Below, one piece after another: positions 3,095-18,096 of a DNA stretch of 44,549 bases. Source of the DNA: a virus. The first letter of the stretch is position 1. Every line of letters begins with the position of its first letter. Position numbers and translations under genes: made by a program. The stretch lies in the IMG/VR virus record IMGVR_UViG_3300011114_000959, positions 1 to 44,549 of that record, one strand, 5' to 3'. A model generated the notes under the pieces. That model did not search any database. It was given only the letters and a program-made list of their open reading frames with translations, and was not told where the DNA came from.

Positions 3095-3814
3095 TTACAG
3101 CGAGATGCACTTGTCACAGGACACCGCGCTGCGCTCTGCCCAATCGGTTCGCCCGCACGACTTGCACGGCTCCTGCTCAAAACCGGTATCCGGCGTTTGC
3201 AACGCAACCTTGCGCGCCCGCAGTTCATTTTGCTGCGCCTCCGTCGCCCCGGACAGCCGCGCGGCGTGAAACGCTTTCTCCAGCTCGGCCATCGTCGCCG
3301 CCTGTCGTCCGGCTGTCATTGCCACATCCAGCGCGGATTGTGGGGCTGGCTTGGTCTGTACGGGCTTGGGTGCGGGCGGAGCGGGCGTTGCCGCCTGTTT
3401 GGCGGGCGCGGGCGTCTGGGGTGATTTGTGCGCCGCAGCGTTGCCGTCGTCGTCGTCCACGCCGATGCCGACGATGGCGCTCAACCCGTAGCGCCGCCCG
3501 TAACTGATTGCGCTGCCCATCCCTTGCGCGTCGGGCTTGCCCGGCTTGCAGGCGAACGTGCCTTCAATCCACTGCCCGCTTGCATGCAAAAGGCGAGTTA
3601 TCACCGTCACCTTCTGCTCGTCGCCCTCAGCGACCTGCACCACGGCCAGACCATGCTTCGCCAGCGGCACGCGGCAGGCGTCAAGCACGCTCGCCAATGT
3701 AGCGTACTTGCTGCCGAAGTGCGGGTTTACGCGGTCTTTGTCCGCATGGGTCAACTCGCCCTGCGCGGCAGACAACGCCGCAGCCAACTTGTCAATTTCG
3801 TTACTCGTTTGCAT
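3095..3814 (-). CDS. erf: ERF-family single-strand annealing recombinase
   Basis: 239-residue protein of the ERF superfamily, which pairs complementary single strands during phage recombination and genome circularisation. The N-terminal 130 residues carry the family signature NPHFGSKYATLASV near residue 30 and GSAISYGRRYGLSAIVGI near residue 100, followed by the acidic DDDDGN. A long Ala/Pro linker (about 130-170) leads to a helical segment and a C-terminal zinc ribbon with C-x2-C and C-x2-C pairs. That added ribbon is not part of the minimal ERF domain and may bind DNA or a partner. The start has an AAGAGG ribosome site. Neighbours (Gp157-like upstream, SSB-like downstream) form a usual phage recombination block. 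Confidence 0.92.
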   Translation of the reverse strand: MQTSNEIDKLAAALSAAQGELTHADKDRVNPHFGSKYATLASVLDACRVPLAKHGLAVVQVAEGDEQKVTVITRLLHASGQWIEGTFACKPGKPDAQGMGSAISYGRRYGLSAIVGIGVDDDDGNAAAHKSPQTPAPAKQAATPAPPAPKPVQTKPAPQSALDVAMTAGRQAATMAELEKAFHAARLSGATEAQQNELRARKVALQTPDTGFEQEPCKSCGRTDWAERSAVSCDKCISL

Positions 3815-3852
3815 GAGATACCTCTTGGCGTATTTTTCGCCAATTTGTTGTT

Positions 3853-4389
3853 TTACTTACTGAAAACGACACTCTCATTTTCGTGCGGAACAATCTCCGC
3901 ACCGGGCACCGCAACGCCTGATTTGATCGAGGCTTTGATAGCCGTCTTGTCCGCAGCAACCGTCACCCGCTGAAATGCCAGCGGCAACAGCGCCACGTCC
4001 GCAACTTCCACGGTCTCGGATTTGCGTGCTCTAAGCGCGACCCAGCCGCCGGCGAACTCAACCTTTGCCTCGCCGGTCAAAGCGATGTGCTCGCGCAGCA
4101 GCAACTCCGTCCGCTGCGTCACCCGCTCCGCAACCGCGTCCAGCCGTTTGGCCGCGTCCAGCAGGCGTTGACCTTCGCCGCGCAGCCAAGCGGCGTCAGC
4201 GTCGGCTTTGCGAATCACAGCGCCACAGGCACCGAATTTTGACACAGCAGCGTCCAGGTACTCGGTCAACTGGCGGTCCCAGTCAGCCTCCTGCTCGGCA
4301 TCGTCCCAGCCATCGGCGGCGGTCGCTGTCAACGCGCTTGCGACCAGCGCAAGGCTGTACGCGGTCATTTTGGGTTGTTCAATTTGCAT
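3853..4389 (-). CDS. Siphovirus Gp157-like protein
   Basis: 178-residue protein that fits the Siphovirus Gp157 family (PF05565). It has an N-terminal helical region with many Asp/Glu, a central helix bundle (about 60-110), and the C-terminal pattern in which LLPLAFQRV is followed by DKTAIKASIKSGVAVPGAEIV. Members occur next to ERF or SSB genes and have been linked to phage resistance in streptococci, but the activity is not established. The ATG at 4389 was chosen because GGAG sits seven bases upstream and the family begins there. A longer frame upstream lies inside the HTH gene and reads as shadow. The start overlaps the HTH gene by 11 bases. Confidence 0.8.
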   Translation of the reverse strand: MQIEQPKMTAYSLALVASALTATAADGWDDAEQEADWDRQLTEYLDAAVSKFGACGAVIRKADADAAWLRGEGQRLLDAAKRLDAVAERVTQRTELLLREHIALTGEAKVEFAGGWVALRARKSETVEVADVALLPLAFQRVTVAADKTAIKASIKSGVAVPGAEIVPHENESVVFSK

Positions 4390-4564
4390 TGGTTTTCTCC
4401 GGCAGTTTGGGCAGGAAAGGCGCAAGCATTTCCAGCGTGTAGACGCGGTGGTCCAGCGCATTTCGCAGGGCCGTCAGTTTGCCGCTTTTGTCCCAGCGCA
4501 GCAGGGTTTTGTGCGATACGCCGATTTGCTTGGCGGCATCGCTGATTTGAATTACATCGGCCAT
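4379..4564 (-). CDS. Small MerR/excisionase-type helix-turn-helix protein
   Basis: 61 residues with a winged-helix pattern of the MerR/Xis kind: ISDAAKQIGVSHKTLLRWDKSGKL forms the helix-turn-helix and HRVYTLEML the wing. It likely binds DNA and may regulate its own operon or assist recombination. It is the first gene after a well-formed promoter (4607-4635), with a GGGAGA ribosome site, and overlaps the Gp157-like gene. No integrase is present, so an excisionase role is not supported and a regulator is more likely. Confidence 0.75.
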   Translation of the reverse strand: MADVIQISDAAKQIGVSHKTLLRWDKSGKLTALRNALDHRVYTLEMLAPFLPKLPEKTNAN

Positions 4565-4606
4565 CGGTCTCCCTTTGCGCGGTTTGCGTCCCGCGTTGTC
4601 ATGTGC

Positions 4607-4635
4607 AGTCTAGGTCAGCCGTCAATTGCAGTCAA
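4607..4635 (-). promoter_or_regulatory. Sigma70-like promoter for the recombination block
   Basis: On the minus strand TTGACT (4635-4630) is followed after exactly 17 bases by TAGACT (4612-4607). It sits in the only clear gap of this part of the operon, about 43 bases before the HTH start. The -35 element is identical to that of the main leftward promoter near 15.63 kb. Confidence 0.6.
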
Positions 4636-4669
4636 GCGAATTCGAGCGGAAATCGTCATTGGCGCAAAA

Positions 4670-4978
4670 CTATTTCGCAACCCCTTCAAACTCAGCCAGA
4701 AAAGCCAGCGCAACCGCCTCAGCGCGGGTCGGTTTTGGTTCATAGCCAGCGGGAATGTCGTTGTGCCAGCAGAACCATTTGCCGTTATCGCCAGCGAGAA
4801 TGCCGCGCTGCAAATCGTGCTCCGGCAAATCCAGCAGCAACAGCGGCCAACTCGATTCGAGATCGGGGCCTCCGAGCCCGCCCACGCTCGCCCAAATTAT
4901 TCCGTCTCGATAGCTCGTCACCTCGCGCCACCGCTGCGTTTTCCCAATCCGTGCCGCCAGTTCTTTGAGATCAGCCAT
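4670..4978 (-). CDS. Hypothetical phage protein
   Basis: 102 residues, rich in Trp (RWREV, IIWASVG, KWFCWHND) with a helical C-terminus PTRAEAVALAFLAEF. The arrangement is of the small accessory kind found beside DUF551-like genes in phage early operons, where a short sandwich domain ends in a helix beginning with Pro. I cannot name a family. It begins eight bases inside the preceding DUF551-like gene, so the two are probably translated together. The next segment downstream holds the promoter of the recombination block. Confidence 0.6.
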   Translation of the reverse strand: MADLKELAARIGKTQRWREVTSYRDGIIWASVGGLGGPDLESSWPLLLLDLPEHDLQRGILAGDNGKWFCWHNDIPAGYEPKPTRAEAVALAFLAEFEGVAK

Positions 4979-5264
4979 GATTCACCTCCGGTTTCGCTGG
5001 CATTTCCCGCCAAGCAACCACGTCCGCAGTCGGCCATCCTGACCAGTCGTCGCTGTGACTGTGCGCCACGCCGATGTAGCCGCTGGCCAGCAAGAGCAGC
5101 ACGTCGCGGGTCGTGTCGGGAAAGCTGCCGTCGGTATGCCACCGCTCGCGCTCCTCGATGACCGCAAGTTTGGCGCGCAGTTGCGCAAGTTCTGCCGCCG
5201 CCTCAATAGCCAAGTCTGATTCTGCCGGGAAAAATGCCAGCAATGCGTCAAGTCCTTGTTTCAT
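4971..5264 (-). CDS. DUF551-like phage protein
   Basis: 97 residues. The N-terminal half is a short helix (residues 10-40, rich in Ala, Glu and Leu). The C-terminal half has the DUF551-like order: RWHTDGSFPD, then VLLLLASGYIGVAHS, ending VVAWREMPAKPE, with Trp and the final W-x-x-x-P signature. Proteins of this family are frequent in early regions of phages of Gram-negative hosts and have no assigned role. The start overlaps the stop of the upstream small gene as ATGA. A second, more distant relative is encoded at 11229-11639. Confidence 0.65.
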   Translation of the reverse strand: MKQGLDALLAFFPAESDLAIEAAAELAQLRAKLAVIEERERWHTDGSFPDTTRDVLLLLASGYIGVAHSHSDDWSGWPTADVVAWREMPAKPEVNHG

Positions 5265-5452
5265 TTACCCTCCAGCGCATCAAGCGCGGCGTCAAGTTGT
5301 TTTGCTGAGTCTGCCATTGCCCTCCACGCGGCATCTTGGGCGGCAAGCGCATCGCTCCATCGGCGCTGGCATTCGCGGTGTACCTTGGTCGCGGCAATGA
5401 CGGCTGAGCGTGCGGCGTGTTGCTCTGCTGGCGCCTTTGTTGTCGGTTTCAT
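5261..5452 (-). CDS. Small helical protein, unknown function
   Basis: 63 residues, MKPTTKAPAEQ at the start and then one continuous Ala/Glu/Arg-rich helix with four Trp/Arg positions (RRWSDAL, AAWRAM). The ATG at 5452 forms an ATGA overlap with the stop of the XRE coiled-coil gene, and its own stop overlaps the start of the DUF551-like gene in the same way. This supports the short start over one 36 codons earlier, which would lie inside the upstream gene. It may act with the coiled-coil protein, but only the coupling supports this. Confidence 0.55.
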   Translation of the reverse strand: MKPTTKAPAEQHAARSAVIAATKVHRECQRRWSDALAAQDAAWRAMADSAKQLDAALDALEGK

Positions 5453-6207
5453 TTGCCACCGCCTTCGCCGTCGGTCGGCGCGTCCAGAATCGCAAAGATT
5501 TCGCTGTACCCAGCCCTCGCGAAAGGAATTATCGCCGGTCGCTGCTCGTAGCTCAGGCACTTTGTCCGTACTTCCGCCAACTTCGCCTCCGTTGCGGCGA
5601 TTTGGGCGGTCAAATACTCAATCGATTCATCCCGCATTGCGATGACCAGTGCTGAGTCACCTGCCGTGTCGAGCTTCGCCCGCAACCCCGCAATCTCCTC
5701 CTGCGCCGCGTACAACCCCTCGCTCTGAATCAGGTTCGCCTGTTGCAGTGCGGCGATGGTCGCAGCTTGGGCGTCAACATCACCGGCGTATGCATCCCAA
5801 TTCGCCACCGTCGCTCGCAGTTCCGCAATCTCCGCCGCTTGGCTGGCGATGGTCGCGCCGTCCCGCTCAAACCGCGCCTTTGCGCCAGCGTCAAACATTC
5901 CGCCGTCTTGCTCCAGTTCACAGATCATTGCGTGTTGATCGGCAACGCTTGTGCGGAGTTCCGCAATCAAGGCAGCCTGTGCGTCCTCGATTGGGTCGCT
6001 CTCCATCTCACGAAGCGCGGCGAGATCGAGTAGCGGAATGCTGAATAAGCGAGCCGCCTTATCTAGTGTTTGCGCTGACGGTCGCAGTTTGTCGTTCTCC
6101 ATCAACGACAACGCGGCGGCAGAAATGCCCAATAGGGGCGCGGTTTCGCGTAAGCCTTTGTCGCCGTTATTGAATCGCGCCTTTCGCAATGTTTGTCCAA
6201 GCGTCAT
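5449..6207 (-). CDS. XRE-family HTH protein with long coiled-coil tail
   Basis: 252 residues. Residues 1-65 form a Cro/C1-type helix-turn-helix: LGQTLRKAR, then LRETAPLLGISAAALSLME and PSAQTLDKAARLF. After that comes about 150 residues of near-continuous coiled coil with repeated AEIAELRA-like heptads and a short C-terminal globular piece. Such fusions suggest a DNA-binding oligomer. It could regulate early genes or organise phage DNA. No cI/cro switch architecture is visible around it, and the gene lies in the middle of a unidirectional operon, so a lysogeny repressor is unlikely. The ribosome site GGAGAGAGGG is strong. Confidence 0.7.
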   Translation of the reverse strand: MTLGQTLRKARFNNGDKGLRETAPLLGISAAALSLMENDKLRPSAQTLDKAARLFSIPLLDLAALREMESDPIEDAQAALIAELRTSVADQHAMICELEQDGGMFDAGAKARFERDGATIASQAAEIAELRATVANWDAYAGDVDAQAATIAALQQANLIQSEGLYAAQEEIAGLRAKLDTAGDSALVIAMRDESIEYLTAQIAATEAKLAEVRTKCLSYEQRPAIIPFARAGYSEIFAILDAPTDGEGGGK

Positions 6208-6235
6208 ATTCCCTCTCTCCCCAAGCGCCCTCGCG

Positions 6236-6445
6236 CTAAATTGGCCCCTTCAGCCGCCACAAATCAACTCCATAAACACTCCGCCCGCGTACCAGCACGC
6301 CAGCGGCTTCCAGTTCGTCCAGCAATTCCCGATACCTGCAGTCCTTCGCCCCTTCACCCTTCGCGCGCAGTTCCGGCAGCGTGCAACCGAGCGGATAGCG
6401 TGCGAGGCGGGCGAGGAGTTGGATGCGGGTTGCTGTGGATTTCAT
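6236..6445 (-). CDS. Small winged-helix-like protein
   Basis: 69 residues with the layout of a winged helix: RIQLLARLARYPLG, then TLPELRAK, CRYRELLDELEAAGVLVR and a terminal strand VYGVDLWRL. Lys and Arg are plentiful, so DNA binding is plausible. The ATG overlaps the stop of the SF2 helicase gene as ATGA. I cannot assign a family, and the HTH reading is an inference from hydrophobic spacing. Confidence 0.6.
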   Translation of the reverse strand: MKSTATRIQLLARLARYPLGCTLPELRAKGEGAKDCRYRELLDELEAAGVLVRGRSVYGVDLWRLKGPI

Positions 6446-8307
6446 TGGGCAACCTCGGCGGTCAACTCAAGGTCAGGCCACGGCAGTTTTTGCGTGCGGC
6501 GATCGCGGATGACCATGCAAACGCCGAACAGGTCGCTGATGTCGCCCTTTTTCAGGCCGTGGAAATTGTCGCCGATGACCCGCAGTGCCTTGCGGTGCAG
6601 CGTCGGGATTTCGGCCACGGTCCCGGTGATTTTCGACAACCAACCCACGTTTTTCGTTTGCTTTTCGCTGGGCGCATCCGACCGCCAGCCCGTCGATTTG
6701 ATCTTGGCCTCGATCAGGCCCGCCAGCGCAAACGCCAGATTGAGCCGCCGGATATAGCTGCGGTACACGCTGAGTTTTTTGACCATCGGCGGGTCCGCGC
6801 CAAGGTCGAGCACAAACTGCGCCTCCTGATCTTCTTCCGGGATTGCCGACTCCGGCGCATCCTGCCCACCCGCCAACATCGCCTCATACGTCAGGCCGAA
6901 AACGTTAAACAGATCATGCGGATCGAGCAGATAGGCGCAGTCCTTGCCGGGGCTGGCGCGCAACACGCGGCCAACCTCCTGACAAAACCGCACCTTGCTG
7001 CCGACGGCGCGGCGCATACAAAGCCAGCGAAGCCAAGGTAAATCAATGCCTTCCGATAGCATGTTCACATGCACCAGCACTTCGATTTCGCCGGTGCGCA
7101 GCGATTCAATCACGTCGGCCTGCTGCGGGCGGGTCAGGCCGAAATGGATGGCGGCTGCGGTCACGCCTGCACGGCGCAGCGTCGCGGCATATCCCTCGGC
7201 GTCGGCAACTGAGGTTGCGTTCGCCAAGCCGGGGCCGTGTCGCAGTGCGTTGCGGATCATCTCGGTGCATGCGTCGTCGAGCGGCATTTCGTCGCCGGTC
7301 CAACTCACAAGCGAGGGCTGCACGATCACGCCGTCGCGCAGCGCGTCAGCCACGCCGTATTCGTACGCCAGATCGGTCCACAGCGACAGACTGCCGCCCC
7401 TTTCGCTGCGGTACGGGGTCGCGGTAAAACCGATTGCCGCAGCTGGTGCAAGAGCTGCGTGCGCGGCGATAATCTGCGCCGTTTCGCTGCGGTGAATTTC
7501 ATCGCCTATCCACAGCGCGACGGTTTTGCCGGTGCGCGCAAGTTCGGCGGCAAGCGCGGTTGCGCTGGCGTTGCAGCACACGATGATCCGCCGCCCGGTT
7601 TCTTTGGCGTGCGTGTAGTAGCGGCCTACGGGTTCGCCACAGATTGTCGCTACGGTCGCGGCCAACTGATCAACCAGGCGCACGGTCGGGGTCGTGATCA
7701 CGATTACGCCGGTTTCATCTGTCGGCGTGCAACGTGCGATTTCGGCTAACAAAATGCTTTTACCACTGCCCATCGTGGCCGACACAACGCTGCGGCGACC
7801 GTCGGCAATCGCAGCAAGCGCCAACGGCAGCGCGGCCCGTTGCCATTCGCGCGGGGTTGCGGTGGCCCACGCACCGGCGATTTCGACCGGCGGCATGATC
7901 ACGCCCAGCGGCGGTTCTAGCGTTGGTGATGCAACATCCGGCAGTTGGTGAACAATCATCGTAGCGGCGTATTCTTTCCTGCGATCTTGTTCCGCCAAAT
8001 GCTCCGCGTAACTGCATCCCTGTCGCTCCTCCCAGCGGCGCAGCCATTCAGCGCGGCAGCGGCGGGCGATTTTGTTTTCTGGGTCGCAGTCGCGCACCTG
8101 CGATAGCAACCAGGATTCCGGCACATCCCGCCACGCCACATCAGCAAACGGCGCATGGCCGGTGGGGGCGGTTTCCGTCGGCGGCCACGAATGATGTCCG
8201 GCGGGGCAACGCACGCCGTACTTTTGATGCATATCGTTAAAGTCAGGCGTATATTCGGCGAGTTTGGCTGTTTGCGGACCGCAGTTTTTGACTTGGCAAT
8301 AAGGCAT
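6442..8307 (-). CDS. SF2 DNA helicase (DEAD/DEAH type)
   Basis: 621-residue ATP-dependent helicase for replication or recombination. A Cys/His-bearing N-terminal part (residues 1-45) leads into a segment around 50-100 (HAPFADVAWRDVPESWLL) that resembles the small DUF3820-like module of phage and bacterial proteins. The helicase core follows: Walker A SATMGSGKS at 177-184, DEIH at 269-272, FTATP at 294-298, and the second RecA domain with LSEGIDLP and the arginine-finger motif QEVGRVLRA. The ATG at 8307 has a GGAGGG site and lies one base after the stop of the SF3 helicase gene. A longer frame upstream would sit inside that gene. UvsW/RadD-like helicases are the nearest functional analogues. 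Confidence 0.9.
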   Translation of the reverse strand: MPYCQVKNCGPQTAKLAEYTPDFNDMHQKYGVRCPAGHHSWPPTETAPTGHAPFADVAWRDVPESWLLSQVRDCDPENKIARRCRAEWLRRWEERQGCSYAEHLAEQDRRKEYAATMIVHQLPDVASPTLEPPLGVIMPPVEIAGAWATATPREWQRAALPLALAAIADGRRSVVSATMGSGKSILLAEIARCTPTDETGVIVITTPTVRLVDQLAATVATICGEPVGRYYTHAKETGRRIIVCCNASATALAAELARTGKTVALWIGDEIHRSETAQIIAAHAALAPAAAIGFTATPYRSERGGSLSLWTDLAYEYGVADALRDGVIVQPSLVSWTGDEMPLDDACTEMIRNALRHGPGLANATSVADAEGYAATLRRAGVTAAAIHFGLTRPQQADVIESLRTGEIEVLVHVNMLSEGIDLPWLRWLCMRRAVGSKVRFCQEVGRVLRASPGKDCAYLLDPHDLFNVFGLTYEAMLAGGQDAPESAIPEEDQEAQFVLDLGADPPMVKKLSVYRSYIRRLNLAFALAGLIEAKIKSTGWRSDAPSEKQTKNVGWLSKITGTVAEIPTLHRKALRVIGDNFHGLKKGDISDLFGVCMVIRDRRTQKLPWPDLELTAEVAQ

Positions 8308-8308
8308 T

Positions 8309-10168
8309 TCAATCCCTCCCATAGCGGCTGTTGTTGCCCCAAGCCCCATCAGCGACGCGGCGGGCGTCACTCTTGATCTCGGCGTTCCACTTGACAACTT
8401 GGCGCGTTTCCTTTGCGAATCCGATAGCTTTGAGGCGGGCAGCGAACAGGTTGCTGGCGGGCGCGCGGTGGCCGTTGTCTTTGGCCCACGCGCAGAAATG
8501 GTTATAAAGCACGCTACCCTGCGTCACAAAGTCGTTTACCTCCATCAGCGATTCGTTGGCCCATGCGCGGATTGGGTTGCTGTCGAGTTGCCAGAGATGC
8601 GTCGCAGCTTCGGCAGATCCAGGGCGAATCAAATGCCCGCGCGCCAGCAATGCGGGCAGCGCCGCCAGCGCGGTAGCGGCAATCTGCGGCGCTTCTGCCG
8701 TCAATTTAGCTTGTAGATTCCGGTCTTGCCGTTCGCGGGGGACGATATTGGCGCAATCCAGCAACACAAGCCGGTCCATCAATGCGCTGTCACGGCTCGG
8801 CGGCAATTCGTTGGCGGCGAAAACATGCGCGCAGCGCGGCACCCAGTCAAACGGCTTTTCCGCCGGGTATCGGCAGTTGACCATTTCGCCGCTGAGAATT
8901 GCCTTGGCAGCTTCGCCATCCATCAATTCGCGGGCGGGAAGTTCATTGACGAAATTGATTCGGCCACCACTCAAGTGCGCGCGGTGGTATTCGGACGACA
9001 TCGCATGCAGGGTGATGGCGCGGTGGCTTGATACCGGAAAGCATGTTGAAATCATGTGTAGTATTTGGCTTTTGCCGGTGTCTTTGGGGCCGACAAGCAG
9101 CGGCGTGTCCTTGTAGCGGGTGGCGATGCCGCAGATTGCCGCGCCCAGCCATTCCCAAAAGTACCGAATCCGCTGATCAAAGTCATCGCATCCGGCCCAC
9201 GTCTGGCTCAGCAGCGTTTCGGCGGTCCACGCTCGCTCTGCCAACGGTGCCAACGGGTAGGCGGCGGAATGATCGCTCTTGACGCGATGGTCGCGAGTCA
9301 TCTTTTCAATAATGATTTCATTGCCATCTATGCGCGCAAACACGTTGGCGAACGGTGCACCAGTAGGTGCCTCTGCAAAAAACTTTGGCGCAAACAACGT
9401 TGTTTTGCAGTTCTGGACGATTCCTTTGACGTTTCCGGCGCTCAACGTAATCGGGCGAAATTTATCAGCATCGCCCTGTTCTCGCGCTGGAACGACAACC
9501 CATTGACCATCATAGCTTTGTGCGGTTTTTGCCAGCGTCTCATCTTCCCAGCGGGTCCATGTGCTGCCGGTGAATTGCCAGATTCGATTTTCGGCGCAGA
9601 CAACGCTTTCGCGCGGGCCGAGGGTGACCGCAAGGTCAAGGCCAAGTTCCACTTCGCCGCCGCGTTTGAATGTTTTTTCTTGCGGCGCGCATTCCTCTGC
9701 GGGATCAGCAGCCAGTGCGGCGTCGCACAACTGGTCAAGTCTGTTGACGCCGCTCGGTGTCGGGCGGGGTGGCGTGGCGGTATCCGGCGGCGGTTTTGGC
9801 CTCTCCGGTTTTGGCCTGTCGGCCACACTGCCGATCGGGTGTTTGCCTTTGCTTAGTGCATCCGACAGCTTGGCGCGCAAATCGCGCTCGGTCCATACAG
9901 GATCGCAAATATCGTTCCAAGCCCAAAGCAGCGGCCACGCCTCCGCTTCACTCAGACCGAAATCGCGCACAAGCATTGCTGCCGTGCCGAATGTGCGGGA
10001 ATTTCCACCCTGCCCTGAAATTGCGCCGGGGCATTTGGCAATCCAAGCCGCCGCGCGTTTGATCCGCACGTCGCTGTTCTGTGAATACATCGGCGGCGTA
10101 AATTCGCGCAACGGCACCGCCGGCAGCTCAGCCACGGCCTGTAGAATTTGGGCAATGGCGTATTTCAT
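8309..10168 (-). CDS. Replicative SF3 helicase, P4/D5 primase-helicase family
   Basis: 619 residues. Residues 30-115 form a helical PriCT-like domain ending PVWTERDLRAKL, followed by a Pro-rich linker. A D5-N-like region (about 185-300) precedes the SF3 ATPase with Walker A GPKDTGKS at 360-367 and Walker B INFVNELP near 405. The D5 C-terminal winged-helix region follows. The polymerising primase domain is missing from this chain and is encoded by the upstream gene, whose stop overlaps this ATG as ATGA. The two probably form a split primase-helicase that unwinds and primes at the repeat-rich region upstream. The start at 10168 was preferred to one 13 codons earlier because of that overlap. Confidence 0.88.
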   Translation of the reverse strand: MKYAIAQILQAVAELPAVPLREFTPPMYSQNSDVRIKRAAAWIAKCPGAISGQGGNSRTFGTAAMLVRDFGLSEAEAWPLLWAWNDICDPVWTERDLRAKLSDALSKGKHPIGSVADRPKPERPKPPPDTATPPRPTPSGVNRLDQLCDAALAADPAEECAPQEKTFKRGGEVELGLDLAVTLGPRESVVCAENRIWQFTGSTWTRWEDETLAKTAQSYDGQWVVVPAREQGDADKFRPITLSAGNVKGIVQNCKTTLFAPKFFAEAPTGAPFANVFARIDGNEIIIEKMTRDHRVKSDHSAAYPLAPLAERAWTAETLLSQTWAGCDDFDQRIRYFWEWLGAAICGIATRYKDTPLLVGPKDTGKSQILHMISTCFPVSSHRAITLHAMSSEYHRAHLSGGRINFVNELPARELMDGEAAKAILSGEMVNCRYPAEKPFDWVPRCAHVFAANELPPSRDSALMDRLVLLDCANIVPRERQDRNLQAKLTAEAPQIAATALAALPALLARGHLIRPGSAEAATHLWQLDSNPIRAWANESLMEVNDFVTQGSVLYNHFCAWAKDNGHRAPASNLFAARLKAIGFAKETRQVVKWNAEIKSDARRVADGAWGNNSRYGRD

Positions 10169-10719
10169 TTGAGCGTCACCATGTAAGGGTCCGTTTTGCA
10201 ATGCCAAAAGCCAGGCACACGCAACACGCGCGATGGATCTGAGACTTTGCTATCGCTGCCGTAGTGTTGCGCAAGTCTGCGCTGTGCATCGGAAAAATCC
10301 AGAATAGGGCAATCGTCGACCAGCCAATATGCGTGTGGGCCGTTGCGCGACTGCACGACGATCGACGGTGGCAAGTGCCACGCGGGCGGCGTGAATCCGT
10401 CGCAGTCGATGAACACCGCGCGGATGCGCGTGATATTCGATGCTTCGCGGCCAAGACCATCGGTTTCATTGACGGTGACAAAAACGCCGCAGCGATCCGC
10501 ATTTGCGCGCGTGAGTCGGACGGCGGCCTCCGCTAGCGTGGCGTAAAAATGCTTGGCCTTGCTGGGGCGCTTGCTGCCGCGCTTGCCGTTCGCCAACAGC
10601 GGCGCGGGCAAATCGTCAAAATATTGCCAAGTGCAGGGCGTTTCTGCGCTGCCGGTCAGCGCGGCAATGTAGGCGGCTGCCATTTTCAGGTCGGGCGAGT
10701 AGGGCAACGCGCACCTCAA
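10165..10719 (-). CDS. Archaeo-eukaryotic-type DNA primase (RepB-like AEP)
   Basis: Up to 184 residues that match the RepB-like primase domain (PF16793 type). The catalytic acids are in FIDCDG (D105, D107), followed by a histidine in GPHAYW (H129) and the DPSRVLRVPG motif at 161-170 that closes the active site. It should lay down primers for phage replication with the SF3 helicase encoded next. The start is uncertain. TTG at 10719 overlaps the stop of an upstream 54-codon frame as TTGA, while the first ATG is at 10683 but has no visible ribosome site. Either leaves the catalytic core intact. Confidence 0.85.
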   Translation of the reverse strand: MRCALPYSPDLKMAAAYIAALTGSAETPCTWQYFDDLPAPLLANGKRGSKRPSKAKHFYATLAEAAVRLTRANADRCGVFVTVNETDGLGREASNITRIRAVFIDCDGFTPPAWHLPPSIVVQSRNGPHAYWLVDDCPILDFSDAQRRLAQHYGSDSKVSDPSRVLRVPGFWHCKTDPYMVTLK

Positions 10720-10880
10720 AACCTAGCCCGCCACGCGATCGCTTCGACACGATCGGGGCGGTGCTGGTCGATTCGCCGCAAGCGGGCGCGGCTCTCGATT
10801 CGGAAACTGGGCACGGGTGCTGCAAGGCGGTCGAAGTCGCTTGCGTGGTCGGTTTTAGCACAGTTCGGCGGCGCGGTCAA
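10716..10880 (-). CDS. Small basic protein upstream of the primase (54 codons)
   Basis: Open frame starting with TTG at 10880. It encodes a hydrophilic, Arg-rich peptide including SDFDRLAAPVPSFRIESRAR and ending RVEAIAWRARF. Composition and codon pattern look coding, and the stop overlaps the primase TTG. There is no good ribosome site and the region just upstream is the repeat array, so the exact start is unsure. If real, it would be a small replication accessory protein, possibly binding the adjacent repeats. Confidence 0.45.
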   Translation of the reverse strand: MTAPPNCAKTDHASDFDRLAAPVPSFRIESRARLRRIDQHRPDRVEAIAWRARF

Positions 10881-10891
10881 TCTTTTTTTTG

Positions 10892-11147
10892 TAGAGGGTG
10901 TTAGAGGGTGCGTTAGAGGGTGGAACGCAATAAAATCAGTGACATTAGAGGGCTTAGAGGGCTAGAGGGTCGGGGGTCGCATGCGTGCGCGCATGCATGC
11001 GCATGCGCGCATGCGAGGGGCTTTTTACCCTCTACACCCTCTAAGCCCTCTAATGTGCCTGAAACTGCTACACAAAAAAAATCCGTACCCTCTAAAAAAA
11101 CACCTGTACCCTCTAATGTCGTTGAAATCATTAGGGCGTACCCTCTA
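10892..11147. repeat. Candidate replication origin: 6 + 6 inverted TAGAGGG units around a central dyad
   Basis: Six TAGAGGG heptamers start at 10892, 10902, 10914, 10946, 10955 and 10963. Six inverted CCCTCTA copies start at 11028, 11037, 11046, 11088, 11109 and 11141. Between them lies a 38-base alternating purine-pyrimidine tract. A-runs occur near 11073-11080 and 11094-11100. The array is non-coding and lies directly before the primase and helicases, as iteron origins do. The number and symmetry of the units are seen directly. The origin function is inferred. A partition or transcription-control site is the alternative. Confidence 0.65.
10978..11015. repeat. 38-bp alternating purine-pyrimidine tract (Z-DNA/cruciform-prone)
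   Basis: A run of GC/GT/AT steps built from overlapping GCATGC and GCGCGC palindromes, with strict alternation of purine and pyrimidine. Sequences of this kind can adopt Z-form DNA or extrude a hairpin under negative supercoiling. It marks the symmetry centre of the two heptamer blocks. Confidence 0.75.
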
Positions 11148-11164
11148 ATGTCGTTGAAATCATT
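11106..11164. repeat. 27-bp exact direct repeat (two copies, 32-bp period)
   Basis: Copies at 11106-11132 and 11138-11164 each contain one CCCTCTA unit followed by ATGTCGTTGAAATCATT. A diverged copy in inverted orientation lies on the other side of the centre, at about 10929-10952. The 32-bp period is three helical turns, which would place both copies on one face of the DNA for a bound initiator. Confidence 0.8.
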
Positions 11165-11228
11165 CAAATCCACCTATCGTCGGCGTACCGCCTCTTGCGC
11201 TCCGCCTCAAGCTCTTTGTCCCATGCTT

Positions 11229-11639
11229 TCAGCGAGTCGAGACACTCTCGTAGATGGGCGTTGGAATTTCTCGCCAGCAGTCGGGCGCGTGCAGCTCATG
11301 TTTTGCCACGTTGTGATCATTCCGGGGCACCCACTCAGGCGGATAATGTTTGTAGCAAATTCGCGTAGCTAGCCAGCAACCTTTCGGCGTTGCCACCAAA
11401 ACTTCAATGTTCGCGGGCGCTTGGTCAACGTCATGATTCCAACCAGCGGCGTCCACGGTCGATTTGACGGCGTGACGCTCGTCGCAGAAGTCCTTGGCGG
11501 CTCGCCGTGCGTCCAGCGCCCGCGAATACTCGTCGTATTTCGCGGCGTCGTGCAGCGCTTTGAGTTCGCGCATTGTCGGGTGCTTGTGGGTCGGGCAGTC
11601 CGCAACTTTGCAGGTAGTTGTTATTTTGGGCATGTTCAT
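11229..11639 (-). CDS. DUF551-like small phage protein
   Basis: 136 residues starting MNMPKITTTCKVADCP, with an N-terminal Cys/His cluster (C-x4-C then H-x-H). A helical linker precedes a C-terminal half that ends DCWREIPTP, with strands VLVATPKGCWLATRI and a Trp-x-Pro pair, loosely like DUF551. The ATG overlaps the upstream stop as ATGA. It is the last gene before the candidate origin. Role unknown. Confidence 0.6.
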   Translation of the reverse strand: MNMPKITTTCKVADCPTHKHPTMRELKALHDAAKYDEYSRALDARRAAKDFCDERHAVKSTVDAAGWNHDVDQAPANIEVLVATPKGCWLATRICYKHYPPEWVPRNDHNVAKHELHAPDCWREIPTPIYESVSTR

Positions 11640-12121
11640 TGGTCGCCTCCGTCGCGCACGGCGCTGGCAATCAGACTCCGCAGCACGGTTTCGGCGGTGG
11701 ATTGGTTGCCGATTTGGCACTCAGCGACGATTCGCGGATGGCTTCCGTCGTCATGCAGAATGTGCCAATCGGCGTGATCGCTCCAATTTGCAAGGCTTGT
11801 TTGCGCGAGATGGCATGGGCGCACCACCATTTGAAACGGCAGCAGCGTTAAAATCTTTCCACCGCTGCCCGGCGGTAGAAAATCAGGGCCATATTCCGGC
11901 AACGGCAACACGCCCAAAAGCCACAGTGCGGCCTCACAAGACCTTTCGGCGGCATCGCGGGTCGAAAATCCAGCCATCGACGCCGTGCTATTAAGGTAGC
12001 ATGGGTACGCAACCTGCCAAATTCGCCAAGCAGTGCCGATATTTGGATGCGTCTCGATTGCGGCATTCCATCCTTCCGGCAATCCTTGCGCAACCCCATC
12101 GATAAAGTGCAAAGTTTTCAT
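11636..12121 (-). CDS. Hypothetical protein
   Basis: 161 residues beginning MKTLHFIDGVAQGLPEGW. It contains a central segment with two Cys/Trp positions (SCEAALWLLGVLPLPEYGPDF) and a C-terminal helix. I recognise no family or active-site pattern. The ATG at 12121 has AAGGAATGAG upstream and was preferred to an earlier in-frame start that would run deep into the preceding gene. The stop overlaps the next start as ATGA, so it belongs to the same coupled early operon. Confidence 0.6.
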   Translation of the reverse strand: MKTLHFIDGVAQGLPEGWNAAIETHPNIGTAWRIWQVAYPCYLNSTASMAGFSTRDAAERSCEAALWLLGVLPLPEYGPDFLPPGSGGKILTLLPFQMVVRPCHLAQTSLANWSDHADWHILHDDGSHPRIVAECQIGNQSTAETVLRSLIASAVRDGGDQ

Positions 12122-12147
12122 CTCATTCCTTGTGCGCAGTCGCGCGG

Positions 12148-12324
12148 TTAAGTCGCTTTCCAGTGCGCCGGTTTGGCGCACGGCTTCATCGTCAGCCGCG
12201 ATGCAAATCCGCAGTCGCAACTCATGGTTATCGGGCCAGCGATCGCGTCGTGCAGTCGCCAGCGCCATTTGTGCCGCAGTCCGCACGCAGCACACCGCCA
12301 GCGGATTCGCTCGGTGCGTTTCAC
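12148..12324 (-). CDS. Small zinc-ribbon protein
   Basis: 58 residues starting with GTG, with C-x2-C (CAAC) near residue 10 and C-x-C (CDCG) near residue 35, spacing that fits a zinc ribbon, between basic flanks (RWRCAACGLRHKWRWRL). The GTG overlaps the stop of the preceding zinc-ribbon gene as GTGA. GGAG lies 13 bases upstream. A nucleic-acid-binding or transcription-modifying role is plausible but unproven. Confidence 0.5.
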   Translation of the reverse strand: MKRTERIRWRCAACGLRHKWRWRLHDAIAGPITMSCDCGFASRLTMKPCAKPAHWKAT

Positions 12325-12458
12325 GATAGCCACAATCTCCAAAAAAACCGCGCGATCCGTCTGCGCAGCGTGAGTTTTGCCAGCCGGCAGCGAGTGCAGC
12401 GGGATTGCGGGTCCAAAGAAAAGCGAAGCGGTTGGCGGCATTGAGCGCAGTTGGTCAT
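12321..12458 (-). CDS. Tiny zinc-ribbon protein (45 codons)
   Basis: 45 residues with two C-x2-C knuckles, NCAQC near residue 4 and RCTRC near residue 22, the classical spacing of a single rubredoxin-like zinc ribbon. A strongly basic, Trp-containing tail follows (RRRIARFFWRLWLS). The ATG overlaps the HNH endonuclease stop as ATGA, and the stop overlaps the next start. Both of these tandem small proteins could bind nucleic acid. Confidence 0.55.
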   Translation of the reverse strand: MTNCAQCRQPLRFSLDPQSRCTRCRLAKLTLRRRIARFFWRLWLS

Positions 12459-13039
12459 GGCAGCAATCCTTGCGATTCTATTGGGTTGCACCATTGCTCG
12501 GCGATTTTGGTAGCCCAAGCGATGAACTCAGCACGCCCTCTGGTTCCTTTGGCGATGTTGCAGGTGCCGCAACACGGCAGACAGTTGTTTGCTGTGTACG
12601 GTTTGGTTGAGTCGGCGCGGTCGATTCCGTTGTAAGTGAAGCCACTCGGGTTGTGTTTATTCCGTTTTACGTTTCCGCCTGGGTCGCCGCAGTAGTGGCA
12701 TGGTGCACGGATAAGTTTCTCAACCTCGGGATAGGTAAGGTGGAATTCAATGGATCGGTTTCGGGCATGACGTTTGTACTGTAAAATTATCTGGTTGATA
12801 ATTCCTCGGTCGTTCTGAAGTCGATGTCTACCTCTAGCCTCGTTCGATAGACACCCGCAACTCCTGGTGTTTCCGGATCTCAAAAGGGATCCTTGAACGG
12901 TCTTTATTTTTCCGCAGTCGCACTGAACTTCGTAGTGCCTGCGATGGCGATGGTCATGGTGGGAAAATGAAACAACCGTCAACCGAGTGAATCGGTCGCC
13001 GGTTTTGACTAGATGAGTGGAAGCATTGTTGATTGGCAT
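12455..13039 (-). CDS. HNH endonuclease with N-terminal AP2-like DNA-binding region
   Basis: 194 residues. The N-terminal half has the pattern of phage homing-endonuclease-associated domains: GDRFTRLTVV, then YEVQCDCG, and GNTRSCGCL. The C-terminal half is an HNH core: CHYCGDPGG, then YNGIDRADSTKPYTANNCLPCC, and CNIAKG. Stand-alone enzymes of this kind cut DNA site-specifically and spread by homing. The ATG at 13039 has no good ribosome site, and 66 bases separate it from the upstream gene, unlike the tight packing around it, which fits a mobile insertion. Confidence 0.82.
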   Translation of the reverse strand: MPINNASTHLVKTGDRFTRLTVVSFSHHDHRHRRHYEVQCDCGKIKTVQGSLLRSGNTRSCGCLSNEARGRHRLQNDRGIINQIILQYKRHARNRSIEFHLTYPEVEKLIRAPCHYCGDPGGNVKRNKHNPSGFTYNGIDRADSTKPYTANNCLPCCGTCNIAKGTRGRAEFIAWATKIAEQWCNPIESQGLLP

Positions 13040-13105
13040 GGGCCGTACTTTATCAGGTATTCGGCGTGATTGCAAATGAATAATGTGTATTGATCTGCAA
13101 GGGCT

Positions 13106-15891: not shown

Positions 15892-16437
15892 GTGGCGAAA
15901 AGACAGGCGGATGCGAGCGAAGGGCAACCGAAAGCGGGCGATTCTGCCGCTGAATGGGTTTTGATCAGCGACCTGTTGCCGTGGGCTAAAAATCCGCGCG
16001 ACAACAAGCAGGCGATCTTAAAAGTTGCTAAAAGTGTCAAGCGGTTCGGTTTCGGCGCGCCACTTGTCGCGCGATTGGCGAACAAATTTGTCATCGCGGG
16101 GCACACTCGCATTCTCGGCGCGCTGCATCCTCTGAACAAAATGACAATTGTGCCAGTGCGTTATCTCGACATCTCACAAGCTGAAGCTGAAGCGCTGGCA
16201 TTGGCCGACAACAAACTGGGCGAGATCGCAACGTGGGACGATGCCGCGCTGGCCGATGTGCTGCGCGAGATTCAAGCGGCGGATGCAAGTTTGCTTGCGG
16301 ATACGGGATTCAGCGAGGCGGAGATCAAGGAACTGATCGACGGACCAGATTTTCAACCAAGCGGCAATGAGCCGCCGCGTTTGGACGAAAAGAAGCCGAC
16401 TTGTTGCCCAAGTTGCGGTCACACATGGACCGTGTAG
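15892..16437 (+). CDS. ParB/Srx-like N-domain protein with C-terminal Cys cluster
   Basis: 181 residues. Residues 20-115 form a ParB-type domain: EWVLISDLLPWAKNPRDN, the box with IAGHTR at 69-73, and a helix ALALADNKLGE. The C-terminus ends CCPSCGHTW (C171, C172, C175), half of a zinc ribbon. In phages such domains accompany DNA-modification genes and may use nucleotide or bind DNA. GTG at 15892 was chosen because upstream codons look non-coding. GGAAGTGG precedes it. The end overlaps the Mom-like gene by 13 bases, implying coupling. No ParA partner or centromere array was seen, so plasmid partition is unlikely. Confidence 0.8.
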   Translation: MAKRQADASEGQPKAGDSAAEWVLISDLLPWAKNPRDNKQAILKVAKSVKRFGFGAPLVARLANKFVIAGHTRILGALHPLNKMTIVPVRYLDISQAEAEALALADNKLGEIATWDDAALADVLREIQAADASLLADTGFSEAEIKELIDGPDFQPSGNEPPRLDEKKPTCCPSCGHTWTV

Positions 16438-17147
16438 ATCCAGCAAAACCGTTGCATTTGGCGTGGGTTGACCATGCGGCGGCGAAATACGCCTGCGAGC
16501 ATTGGCATTATTCCAAATGTATTCCGGTATTTAAGATTGCACCGCTCGGGGTTTGGGAATTTGGCAGATTTGTCGGCGTCGTGATTTTTAGTGTGGGGGC
16601 GTCTCCGGATTTGGTCAAACCCTATGGTTTAACACAACAACAGGGGTGCGAATTGACGCGAGTCGCACTCGCCAAACACAAAAATTCGGTGTCAAAAATA
16701 CTCTCGATCGCGTTCCGAATGTTGCGGAAACAATCGCCAAATTTGCGGCTTTTGGTATCATTTGCCGACGGTGAACAGGGGCACCACGGCGGGATTTATC
16801 AAGCGGGCGGTTGGGTGTATTCAGGAAGTCAAACATTTCATGCGTATCGCGTTTTGGGGAAAATTGAACATCCCAAAACGTTGTATATGCGCTATGGTGT
16901 CGGCGGCCAATCAATTCCATGGCTTATCGCAAATGTTGACCCGAACGCGGAGAGAATCAAAAACGGGCTAAAACATCGCTACCTCATGCCGTTAGATCCT
17001 GAAATGCACAAGAAAATTCTACCATTAGCAAAGCCGTATCCCAAACGGCCAAATGCGTCCGCTTCCAGCGAAGGCGTTGCGTTCCCCGCAGCGAACGACG
17101 GGGCAGCACCGATCCGGACGCTCCAATCTGAGGAATCTGATGGCTGA
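16425..17147 (+). CDS. mom: Mom-like DNA adenine hypermodification protein
   Basis: 240 residues matching the Mom family, GNAT-fold enzymes. Phage Mu Mom converts adenine to a carbamoylmethyl-type derivative that blocks many restriction enzymes. Visible family features are HWHYSKCIPVF, GVWEFGRFVGVVIF, the core ELTRVALAKHKNSVSKIL, LLVSFADGEQGHHGGIYQAG, and KHRYLMPLDPEM near the end. It starts inside the ParB-like gene and has only a weak ribosome site, so translation is probably coupled to it. In Mu, expression also depends on a zinc protein (Com) encoded just upstream and overlapping. The likely role is protection of phage DNA before packaging. The chemical product and target site are not shown by sequence. 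Confidence 0.85.
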   Translation: MDRVDPAKPLHLAWVDHAAAKYACEHWHYSKCIPVFKIAPLGVWEFGRFVGVVIFSVGASPDLVKPYGLTQQQGCELTRVALAKHKNSVSKILSIAFRMLRKQSPNLRLLVSFADGEQGHHGGIYQAGGWVYSGSQTFHAYRVLGKIEHPKTLYMRYGVGGQSIPWLIANVDPNAERIKNGLKHRYLMPLDPEMHKKILPLAKPYPKRPNASASSEGVAFPAANDGAAPIRTLQSEESDG

Positions 17148-17171: not shown

Positions 17172-17636
17172 ATGCCGGTAACACCAACAGAATCAAGAGA
17201 CCGCAGATTTATTGACCATATTCGCGCAGGGCTTGGCGAATTGCCCAAACTGCCGTCGCAGCAAGATATTCGCGTTGCTGCGCTGGCGTTGTTCACCCGA
17301 CAACTCGACGCAAAACTGAAGAATTTGCAGGACGGCGAGGCGATTCAAATCACTTACCGCATTGACATTGTAGGGCAAAACGGCAAAATTCGCGGCGGTA
17401 GCGGGTCTGAGCGCAATATGCCGGAATATCTGGAGTGGCGCAAAGCGGTTTATTCGCGCGACGCATTTACCTGCAAAGAGTGCGGAAGCAAAAAGCGGTT
17501 GAATGCCCATCATATAAAGCCGTGGCACGCGCATCGCGACCTGCGATTCACTGTTTCCAATGGCATTACGCTCTGTGGCGACTGTCACGCCAAGAAACAC
17601 CCTCATCTGAATTTCACGAAAAAACATGGCAACTAA
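17172..17636 (+). CDS. HNH endonuclease next to terminase
   Basis: 154 residues with the HNH core in its second half: RDAFTCKECGSKK (C-x2-C), LNAHHIKPWH, and GITLCGDCHAKKHP (C-x2-C-H). The first half is helical. HNH proteins directly upstream of terminase genes, as in HK97-type phages, stimulate cutting at the packaging site, so a role in genome packaging is likely. AGGGGA lies before the ATG, and its end overlaps the small terminase by 11 bases. Confidence 0.85.
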   Translation: MPVTPTESRDRRFIDHIRAGLGELPKLPSQQDIRVAALALFTRQLDAKLKNLQDGEAIQITYRIDIVGQNGKIRGGSGSERNMPEYLEWRKAVYSRDAFTCKECGSKKRLNAHHIKPWHAHRDLRFTVSNGITLCGDCHAKKHPHLNFTKKHGN

Positions 17637-18096
17637 GCGAAAAGACAACCCAAAACACCGCGCAGGGCCAAAGCCGCTGCCGTGGTATGACGCCAAACAA
17701 ATCAAAGACTTGTGCGATGGGTTGCGAACAGGCGCGTCGATTGAAATCGCAGCATCGCGGGCAAGAATCGGAAAGACGTTACTATTTGAGCGGTTAGCGG
17801 CAAAGACGCCAGAATCGGCGGAATTAGCGGAGCAGATGGAACGTGCGCGGGCTGAGGGGGCGGTTGGGCTGCTTGCTGTCATCGGCAAAGCGGCGACTGA
17901 GGGCAACTGGCAAGCTGCTGCCAAAAAGCTCGAATGGATGTATCCAGAGGTCTACGGTCGCCAACGCATCGAACTCACCGGCAAAGACGGCGGGGCGGTC
18001 CAAGTCGCGGCAACCGTGGCTGTCGATTTGTCGCGGTTGACCGATGACGAACTAGCAACTGCGCGGGCGTTACACGCTAAAATGCAAGGGGAATAG
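17626..18096 (+). CDS. terS: Terminase small subunit
   Basis: 156 residues with an N-terminal helix-turn-helix (LCDGLRTGASIEIAASRARI, then LFERLAAKT) that should bind the packaging site. The C-terminal ending YPEVYGRQRIELTGKDGG is typical of small terminases of this phage group. It recruits the large subunit to DNA. The start overlaps the HNH gene, and the large subunit follows after one small gene and a 300-base spacer. Confidence 0.85.
   Translation: MATKRKDNPKHRAGPKPLPWYDAKQIKDLCDGLRTGASIEIAASRARIGKTLLFERLAAKTPESAELAEQMERARAEGAVGLLAVIGKAATEGNWQAAAKKLEWMYPEVYGRQRIELTGKDGGAVQVAATVAVDLSRLTDDELATARALHAKMQGE

Follow-up and report, generated by a model that had tools for sequence, protein, structure and literature searches.

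A ParB-like gene, a mom gene and a tRNA-Gly-like element lodged in the 3' end of mom, all occurring in a 44.5-kb phage record (the whole stretch of DNA analysed here, referred to as the window), probably form a ParB-Mom-tRNA(Gly) cassette in which Mom would use glycyl-tRNA to modify adenine in the phage DNA, a reading to which a probability of about 0.7 is given. Loci were collected from viral contigs, from the genomes of bacteria and from named phages, and their comparison has shown that the predicted ParB-like gene, mom and the candidate element go together in many phages and in some bacterial genomes. In the window, the cassette is located at the head of the packaging genes (Table 1). The leftward arm of the same window (positions 3095-13075, minus strand) is devoted to replication and recombination and comprises an Erf-like annealing protein, a Mu Gam-like end protection protein, a helicase, a primase, a RepB primase and an endonuclease VII-like protein.

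Table 1. Features of the cassette and of its immediate downstream neighbours (positions in the window).
Feature	Position	Strand	Basis or remark
ParB-like gene	15892..16437	+	GTG start; frame also open from GTG 15610
Codons of CCPSCGHTWTV, end of the ParB-like protein, with the mom ATG 16425 inside	16402..16434	+	sequence
mom gene	16425..17147	+	ATG start; frame also open from TTG 16401
tRNA-Gly-like element in the mom 3' end	17055..17125	+	covariance model and structure
Acceptor stem	17055-17061/17115-17121	+	7/7 paired
D-type hairpin	17062-17073	+	structure
Anticodon stem	17076-17080/17088-17092	+	5/5 paired
Anticodon UCC (glycine), 7-nt loop GUUCCCC, U33 present	17083..17085	+	structure
T arm with bulged A 17112	17097-17114	+	structure
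U73; encoded CCA	17122; 17123-17125	+	structure
HNH endonuclease gene, next downstream (context, outside the cassette)	17172..17636	+	Pfam HNH, E = 5e-8
Terminase small subunit (context)	17626..18096	+	PHROG 4102, E = 1e-15

The downstream gene of the pair is a true mom and the assignment is strong. The encoded protein belongs to Pfam PF25680 (E = 4.4e-49, 167.3 bits versus a gathering cut-off of 27.1) and to PHROG 1384 (E = 1e-52), and its AF2 model is of high confidence (pLDDT 94.4). In a structure comparison dominated by ordinary GNATs, the closest fold to this model is that of Mu Mom, represented by the crystal structure 8bv8 of a mutant, S124A, described as inactive (VIA-align Z 20.2, rmsd 3.6 over 188 residues; Foldseek E = 1e-12). 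Residue S90 of the window protein is aligned to S124 of Mu Mom, and a serine or a threonine occupies this position in 71 of 71 relatives, in agreement with the family membership that had been claimed for the gene from its sequence. Across the same 71 Moms, the loop standing at the CoA site of the GNAT fold reads HxxPVSRI, and the R/QxxGxG/A pyrophosphate loop after strand 4 is absent. Mu Mom shares 26% identity with the window Mom and 33% with the Mu-type query; by such sequence comparisons, the window-type and Mu-type Moms are two groups far apart from each other, about one third identical. The conserved part of the protein stops at KPYPKRP, near position 17054, and from there on the open frame runs across the tRNA-like element. 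In one relative (L022, 2386-3435), mom is broken up over overlapping frames and a C run lies close to the break; the ParB gene upstream of it is intact, and the locus yielded no tRNA-like element.

The two protein-coding frames of the window overlap by 13 nt, from the first ATG of mom to the ParB stop, and no Shine-Dalgarno-like run is visible by inspection of the sequence before this ATG, so that two statements of the preliminary description, namely that mom starts inside the ParB-like gene and has almost no ribosome site of its own, hold. A search for a conserved adjacency of both genes, which that description had called for, gave a clear answer: among the 149 window-type loci with enough room upstream, 123 have a ParB-like ORF whose end falls at the mom start or a little way into the gene, and in all 78 Mu-type loci, retrieved in a second search that used a Mu-type Mom alignment, such an ORF abuts or overlaps mom, these and the following locus counts not being independent events since the loci are related. 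As judged from these counts, the overlap is conserved and not due to chance.

The tRNA-Gly-like element lies within the stretch covered by the preliminary description, the text of which missed it. It was recovered with a covariance model seeded with seven colinear 76-nt elements, from which the window element was left out; the seed was restricted to these seven because MAFFT applied to all elements misaligned the forms with a short D arm. The window element scores 33.0 bits (E = 3e-5) when the record it belongs to is searched, the next best match having an E-value of 0.098, and it is still found with E = 4.6e-4 in 643 kb. The complete glycine set (C35, C36, U73, G1:C72 and C2:G71) is present in the window copy, which also keeps U33 and is devoid of the UUC T-loop and of an unbroken T stem. 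Folded as a single sequence, the element does not adopt the cloverleaf and folds no better than shuffled sequences (z = -0.40); since the cloverleaf (-24.3 kcal/mol) is not the lowest-energy fold (-28.8 kcal/mol), the support for the window element is phylogenetic. The Rfam tRNA model gave only chance matches below threshold in this region, and no other tRNA was found in the window.

Of 153 window-type loci, 116 have a match of the covariance model at mom; of 78 Mu-type loci, 77 do. Two additional elements (L162 and L166) were encountered in loci fetched with a ParB query instead of a Mom query, and both turned out to be Mu-type Mom loci; the model gave no match in the other 23 loci of the ParB-query set, most of which associate ParB with a methyltransferase. 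A reading of the neighbouring genes leads to the same picture, since the annotated tRNAs beside mom are glycine tRNAs and cloverleaf-like sequences are found at the mom 3' end in most of the other loci. Among 154 non-duplicate Mom loci, ARAGORN detected six tRNAs within 300 nt of mom, all of them specific for glycine and one of which (L151) precedes mom, and three tRNAs elsewhere, for Asn, Met and Lys. In 173 of 197 plus-strand matches, the element lies wholly inside the mom ORF. In other loci it comes past the stop codon, ahead of mom (L150, L151, L153), downstream at a distance of about 500 nt (L038, L052), or on the opposite strand (L026). According to this distribution, the conserved feature is an RNA predicted near mom, not a protein tail. 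Duplicated forms also occur: two tandem tRNA-like elements, the second of which is weak (E = 0.03), immediately precede a distant Mom in a Chloroflexi MAG (L151, 774-948), and two near-identical tRNA-Gly-like elements are located about 2.2 kb apart on a Planctomycetaceae contig (L147, 4447-4522 and 6674-6749).

The element is not universal. The model finds no copy anywhere in Mu, phiEf11 and six other whole records, among which is L018, and many prophages of Paenibacillus, Yersinia and actinomycetes possess mom with no element detected in the stretch or record searched. A dedicated tRNA is thus not needed by every Mom. In L018, a weak candidate can be recognized by eye below the detection level of the model. 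Nine loci from Paenibacillus, Lysinibacillus, Yersinia and Serratia (L111-L113, L115, L116, L119, L120, L122 and L135) keep the ParB-Mom pair with no tRNA-like element detected at mom, and may use the tRNA-Gly of the host.

In the aligned elements, 97% of the cells are paired and 18-19 of the 21 pairs show changes on both sides, figures which lean towards the model because the alignments were fitted to it. This level was reached by none of 500 shuffles, in two separate Mom groups, and it collapses when the pairing partners are slid by one column. The seven-sequence seed, aligned with MAFFT, was already paired at 96.6%, with double changes in 12 of the 21 pairs. In addition, the Rfam tRNA model (RF00005) recognizes two of the elements (L027 and L082) with the same boundaries and marks the A of their T stem as an insertion, with scores of 24.0 and 17.5 bits versus a gathering score of 29, which was reached by no element tested. 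Compensatory changes of this kind have shown the predicted RNA to be a real cloverleaf.

The features that are kept and those that are lost follow a distinct pattern. The classical identity set of bacterial glycine tRNAs consists of G1:C72, C2:G71, U73, C35 and C36. The pairs G1:C72 and C2:G71, together with U73, occur in 169 of 169 distinct elements and an NCC anticodon in all 153 elements with a 7-nt loop, while the third acceptor pair differs in five sequences and pairs 4-7 show wide, compensated variation. Conversely, only 43 of the 153 elements with a 7-nt loop keep U33, 25 of 169 keep the T-loop UUC, and a bulged A interrupts the T stem in 154 of 169. As the T stem is where EF-Tu holds a tRNA and the turn at U33 is required by the ribosome, most copies have been shown, at the level of their predicted structures, to have lost features necessary for decoding and for delivery by EF-Tu. 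Such RNAs should be chargeable, owing to the conserved identity set, and poor in translation, owing to the bulge and the loss of U33, which is what a tRNA kept for charging instead of decoding should look like.

This pattern weighs on two other explanations of the element. Phages often carry tRNAs, and five copies (L008, L026, L028, L138 and L143) are canonical enough to be detected by ARAGORN, as would be expected from an ordinary or decaying translational tRNA, or from the relic of an integration at a host tRNA-Gly gene. Such an origin is nevertheless very improbable, taking into account that covariation in all four helices combined with invariant charging determinants points to selection on the whole RNA, that the element is always of the glycine type and stands outside any tRNA cluster, that U33 and the T-loop are lost in most copies, and that it has been conserved in two Mom groups as distant as those described above. 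An element controlling the expression of mom, either through a cut by RNase P that would process or destabilize the messenger, or as an autoregulatory site bound by Mom or ParB, is somewhat easier to conceive, since tRNA folds are known substrates of RNase P and the element resides within the mom transcript, most often wholly inside the ORF. It is still unlikely: processing needs neither an NCC anticodon nor U73, yet both are invariant, and the position of the element varies from one locus to another, up to the opposite strand.

The ParB-like protein itself belongs to PHROG 620 (E = 4e-34). Alone, it is not reached by the Pfam ParB model; a profile built from 38 relatives matches ParB chains of the Noc/Spo0J type, with Noc as the best match (E = 6e-10). 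A GHTR sequence stands where ParB proteins usually have a GERR-type motif. The C-terminus reads ...EKKPTCCPSCGHTWTV, with CCPSCGHTWTV as final residues, and this tail is modelled as a confident beta hairpin in the AF2 model (pLDDT 87.6). Residues F154, L164, C172, P173 and C175 are invariant in the 38 relatives, and the tail, F..DQGxLD....CPxCG or also F...LDE..CPxCG, is nearly universal in the ParBs of the window group and as conserved as the ParB core. The fusion of a CCPSC end to a ParB-like domain, noticed in the preliminary description, is accordingly real with respect to the sequence and PHROG 620, and the cysteine cluster reduces to a single conserved CxxC.

From this cluster, a possible control of mom like that by Com of phage Mu had been proposed; under such a control, the ParB tail would open an RNA hairpin lying at the overlap and thereby switch on the translation of mom. 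The Com protein has four zinc-binding cysteines (CCCC), and its binding site is a hairpin located where mom starts (PMC6483171). The overlapping genes, the weak ribosome site and the conserved CPxCG tail, encoded by the very codons in which mom starts, are reminiscent of such a control. However, the four-cysteine zinc finger of Com is absent, and no stable RNA hairpin was found at the mom start, where the region folds no better than shuffled sequences (z = +0.38), so that the analogy lacks support. Moreover, the tail occurs in the ParB of Arthrobacter phage Brent (L182, 2351-3391), which has no mom and where two small genes of unknown function come next, and in a ParB that overlaps, in another frame, an apparent C5-cytosine methyltransferase gene (L161, 3001-3489), which looks like the same overlap design applied to another enzyme. 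ParBs preceding the Mu-type moms are devoid of the cysteine tail and typically end in NENSNGNALA-like sequences. A Com-like role is accordingly highly doubtful, and the tail is ruled out as a Mom-specific feature. As a guess, it might serve as a docking site for the partner enzyme. The broader suggestion that ParB couples DNA recognition to modification fares better: ParB and Mom form a conserved unit, and a participation of ParB in DNA modification would fit, by analogy, with the ParB domains fused or adjacent to DNA methyltransferases in other phages. The methylation expected alongside Mom is not borne out, no methyltransferase being found among the 25 window ORFs tested.

The preferred reading, in which Mom is served by a glycyl-tRNA, comes from the nature of the Mom product. 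PMC3146451 cites Swinton 1983, a paper whose title gives the modified base of Mu as alpha-N-(purin-6-yl)glycinamide, and glycyl-tRNA is for this reason proposed as the donor of Mom, a role it quite probably fulfils. The product has thus been known since 1983, and the origin of its glycinamide group has been unclear, published proposals assuming an acyl-CoA; a glycine tRNA conserved inside mom would point to glycyl-tRNA and makes the donor question directly testable. In the proposed mechanism, the host glycyl-tRNA synthetase would charge the dedicated tRNA, which the bulge of the T arm and the odd anticodon loop would keep off EF-Tu and the ribosome. Mom, a GNAT fold in which the acyl-CoA loop is replaced by PVSR, would take the glycyl ester as donor for adenine. 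By a simple route, the glycyl group would be transferred to N6, the free amine of the glycine would attack C6 and the ring opening would give purin-6-yl-glycinamide. ParB would bring Mom to the DNA, by analogy with the ParB-methyltransferase fusions, and the outcome would be a phage DNA resistant to restriction. Mu-like phages without a tRNA of their own would rely on host glycyl-tRNA. The lack of the Gly-rich CoA loop of GNATs in the aligned Moms argues for this proposal; against it stands a review on jumbo phages (PMC7824862), which names an acyl-CoA such as glycyl-CoA as the source of the acyl group that Mom transfers.

Taken together, these features suggest that the phage attaches glycine from a charged tRNA to its own DNA. 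It is reasonably likely that Mom is an aminoacyl-tRNA-dependent DNA base modifier, with a dedicated, translation-incompetent tRNA-Gly as adjoining cofactor gene. If true, the transfer of an amino acid from a tRNA to a DNA base would represent a class of DNA modification for which no earlier description was found, and would connect DNA hypermodification and anti-restriction with the machinery of translation. It would also explain many unannotated RNA genes of phages and provide a sequence marker for modified phage genomes. No literature linking Mom to glycyl-tRNA, to aminoacyl-tRNA or to tRNA-Gly was found, and papers beyond the search may exist; as far as searched, three points are new: how general the cassette is among phages, which tRNA features are retained or lost, and the connection with the chemistry of Mom.

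Among the known systems, com-mom of phage Mu resembles the window locus by the fold and the conserved residues of Mom and by the occurrence of an overlapping upstream gene; it differs in that this gene encodes Com instead of ParB and acts at a start hairpin that was not found here, and in that Mu is devoid of the tRNA-Gly-like RNA which the window carries in the mom 3' end. The glycyl-tRNAs of the staphylococcal cell wall (FemXAB) similarly consist of a dedicated tRNA-Gly working outside translation and feeding a GNAT-related transferase, in a host-encoded system whose acceptor is peptidoglycan, whereas the acceptor proposed for Mom is DNA. Phage ParB-methyltransferase fusions (PHROG 498) likewise join a ParB-like domain to a DNA-modifying enzyme, which is a fused methyltransferase with no tRNA-like element nearby, instead of a Mom with an overlapping gene and an element. 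GNAT enzymes acting on glycyl-tRNA, as proposed for Mom, do exist, in the form of the toxins TacT and ItaT (PMC9241777), which acetylate the charged tRNA, whereas the proposed reaction would pass a group from the charged tRNA to DNA. This anatomy was described once before, in the ssrA genomic islands of Dehalococcoides, where 16 modules combine parB and mom with an embedded tRNA-Gly-like locus whose DCC anticodon lies in a 5-nt loop (McMurdie 2011, PMC3146451). In that work, Mom is described as acting by methylation and the tRNA-Gly-like locus served as a primer site, and no link from the tRNA to the chemistry of Mom was found in its text. The islands were reported from one genus and one marine fosmid, whereas the association described here extends over many phages and two groups of Mom.
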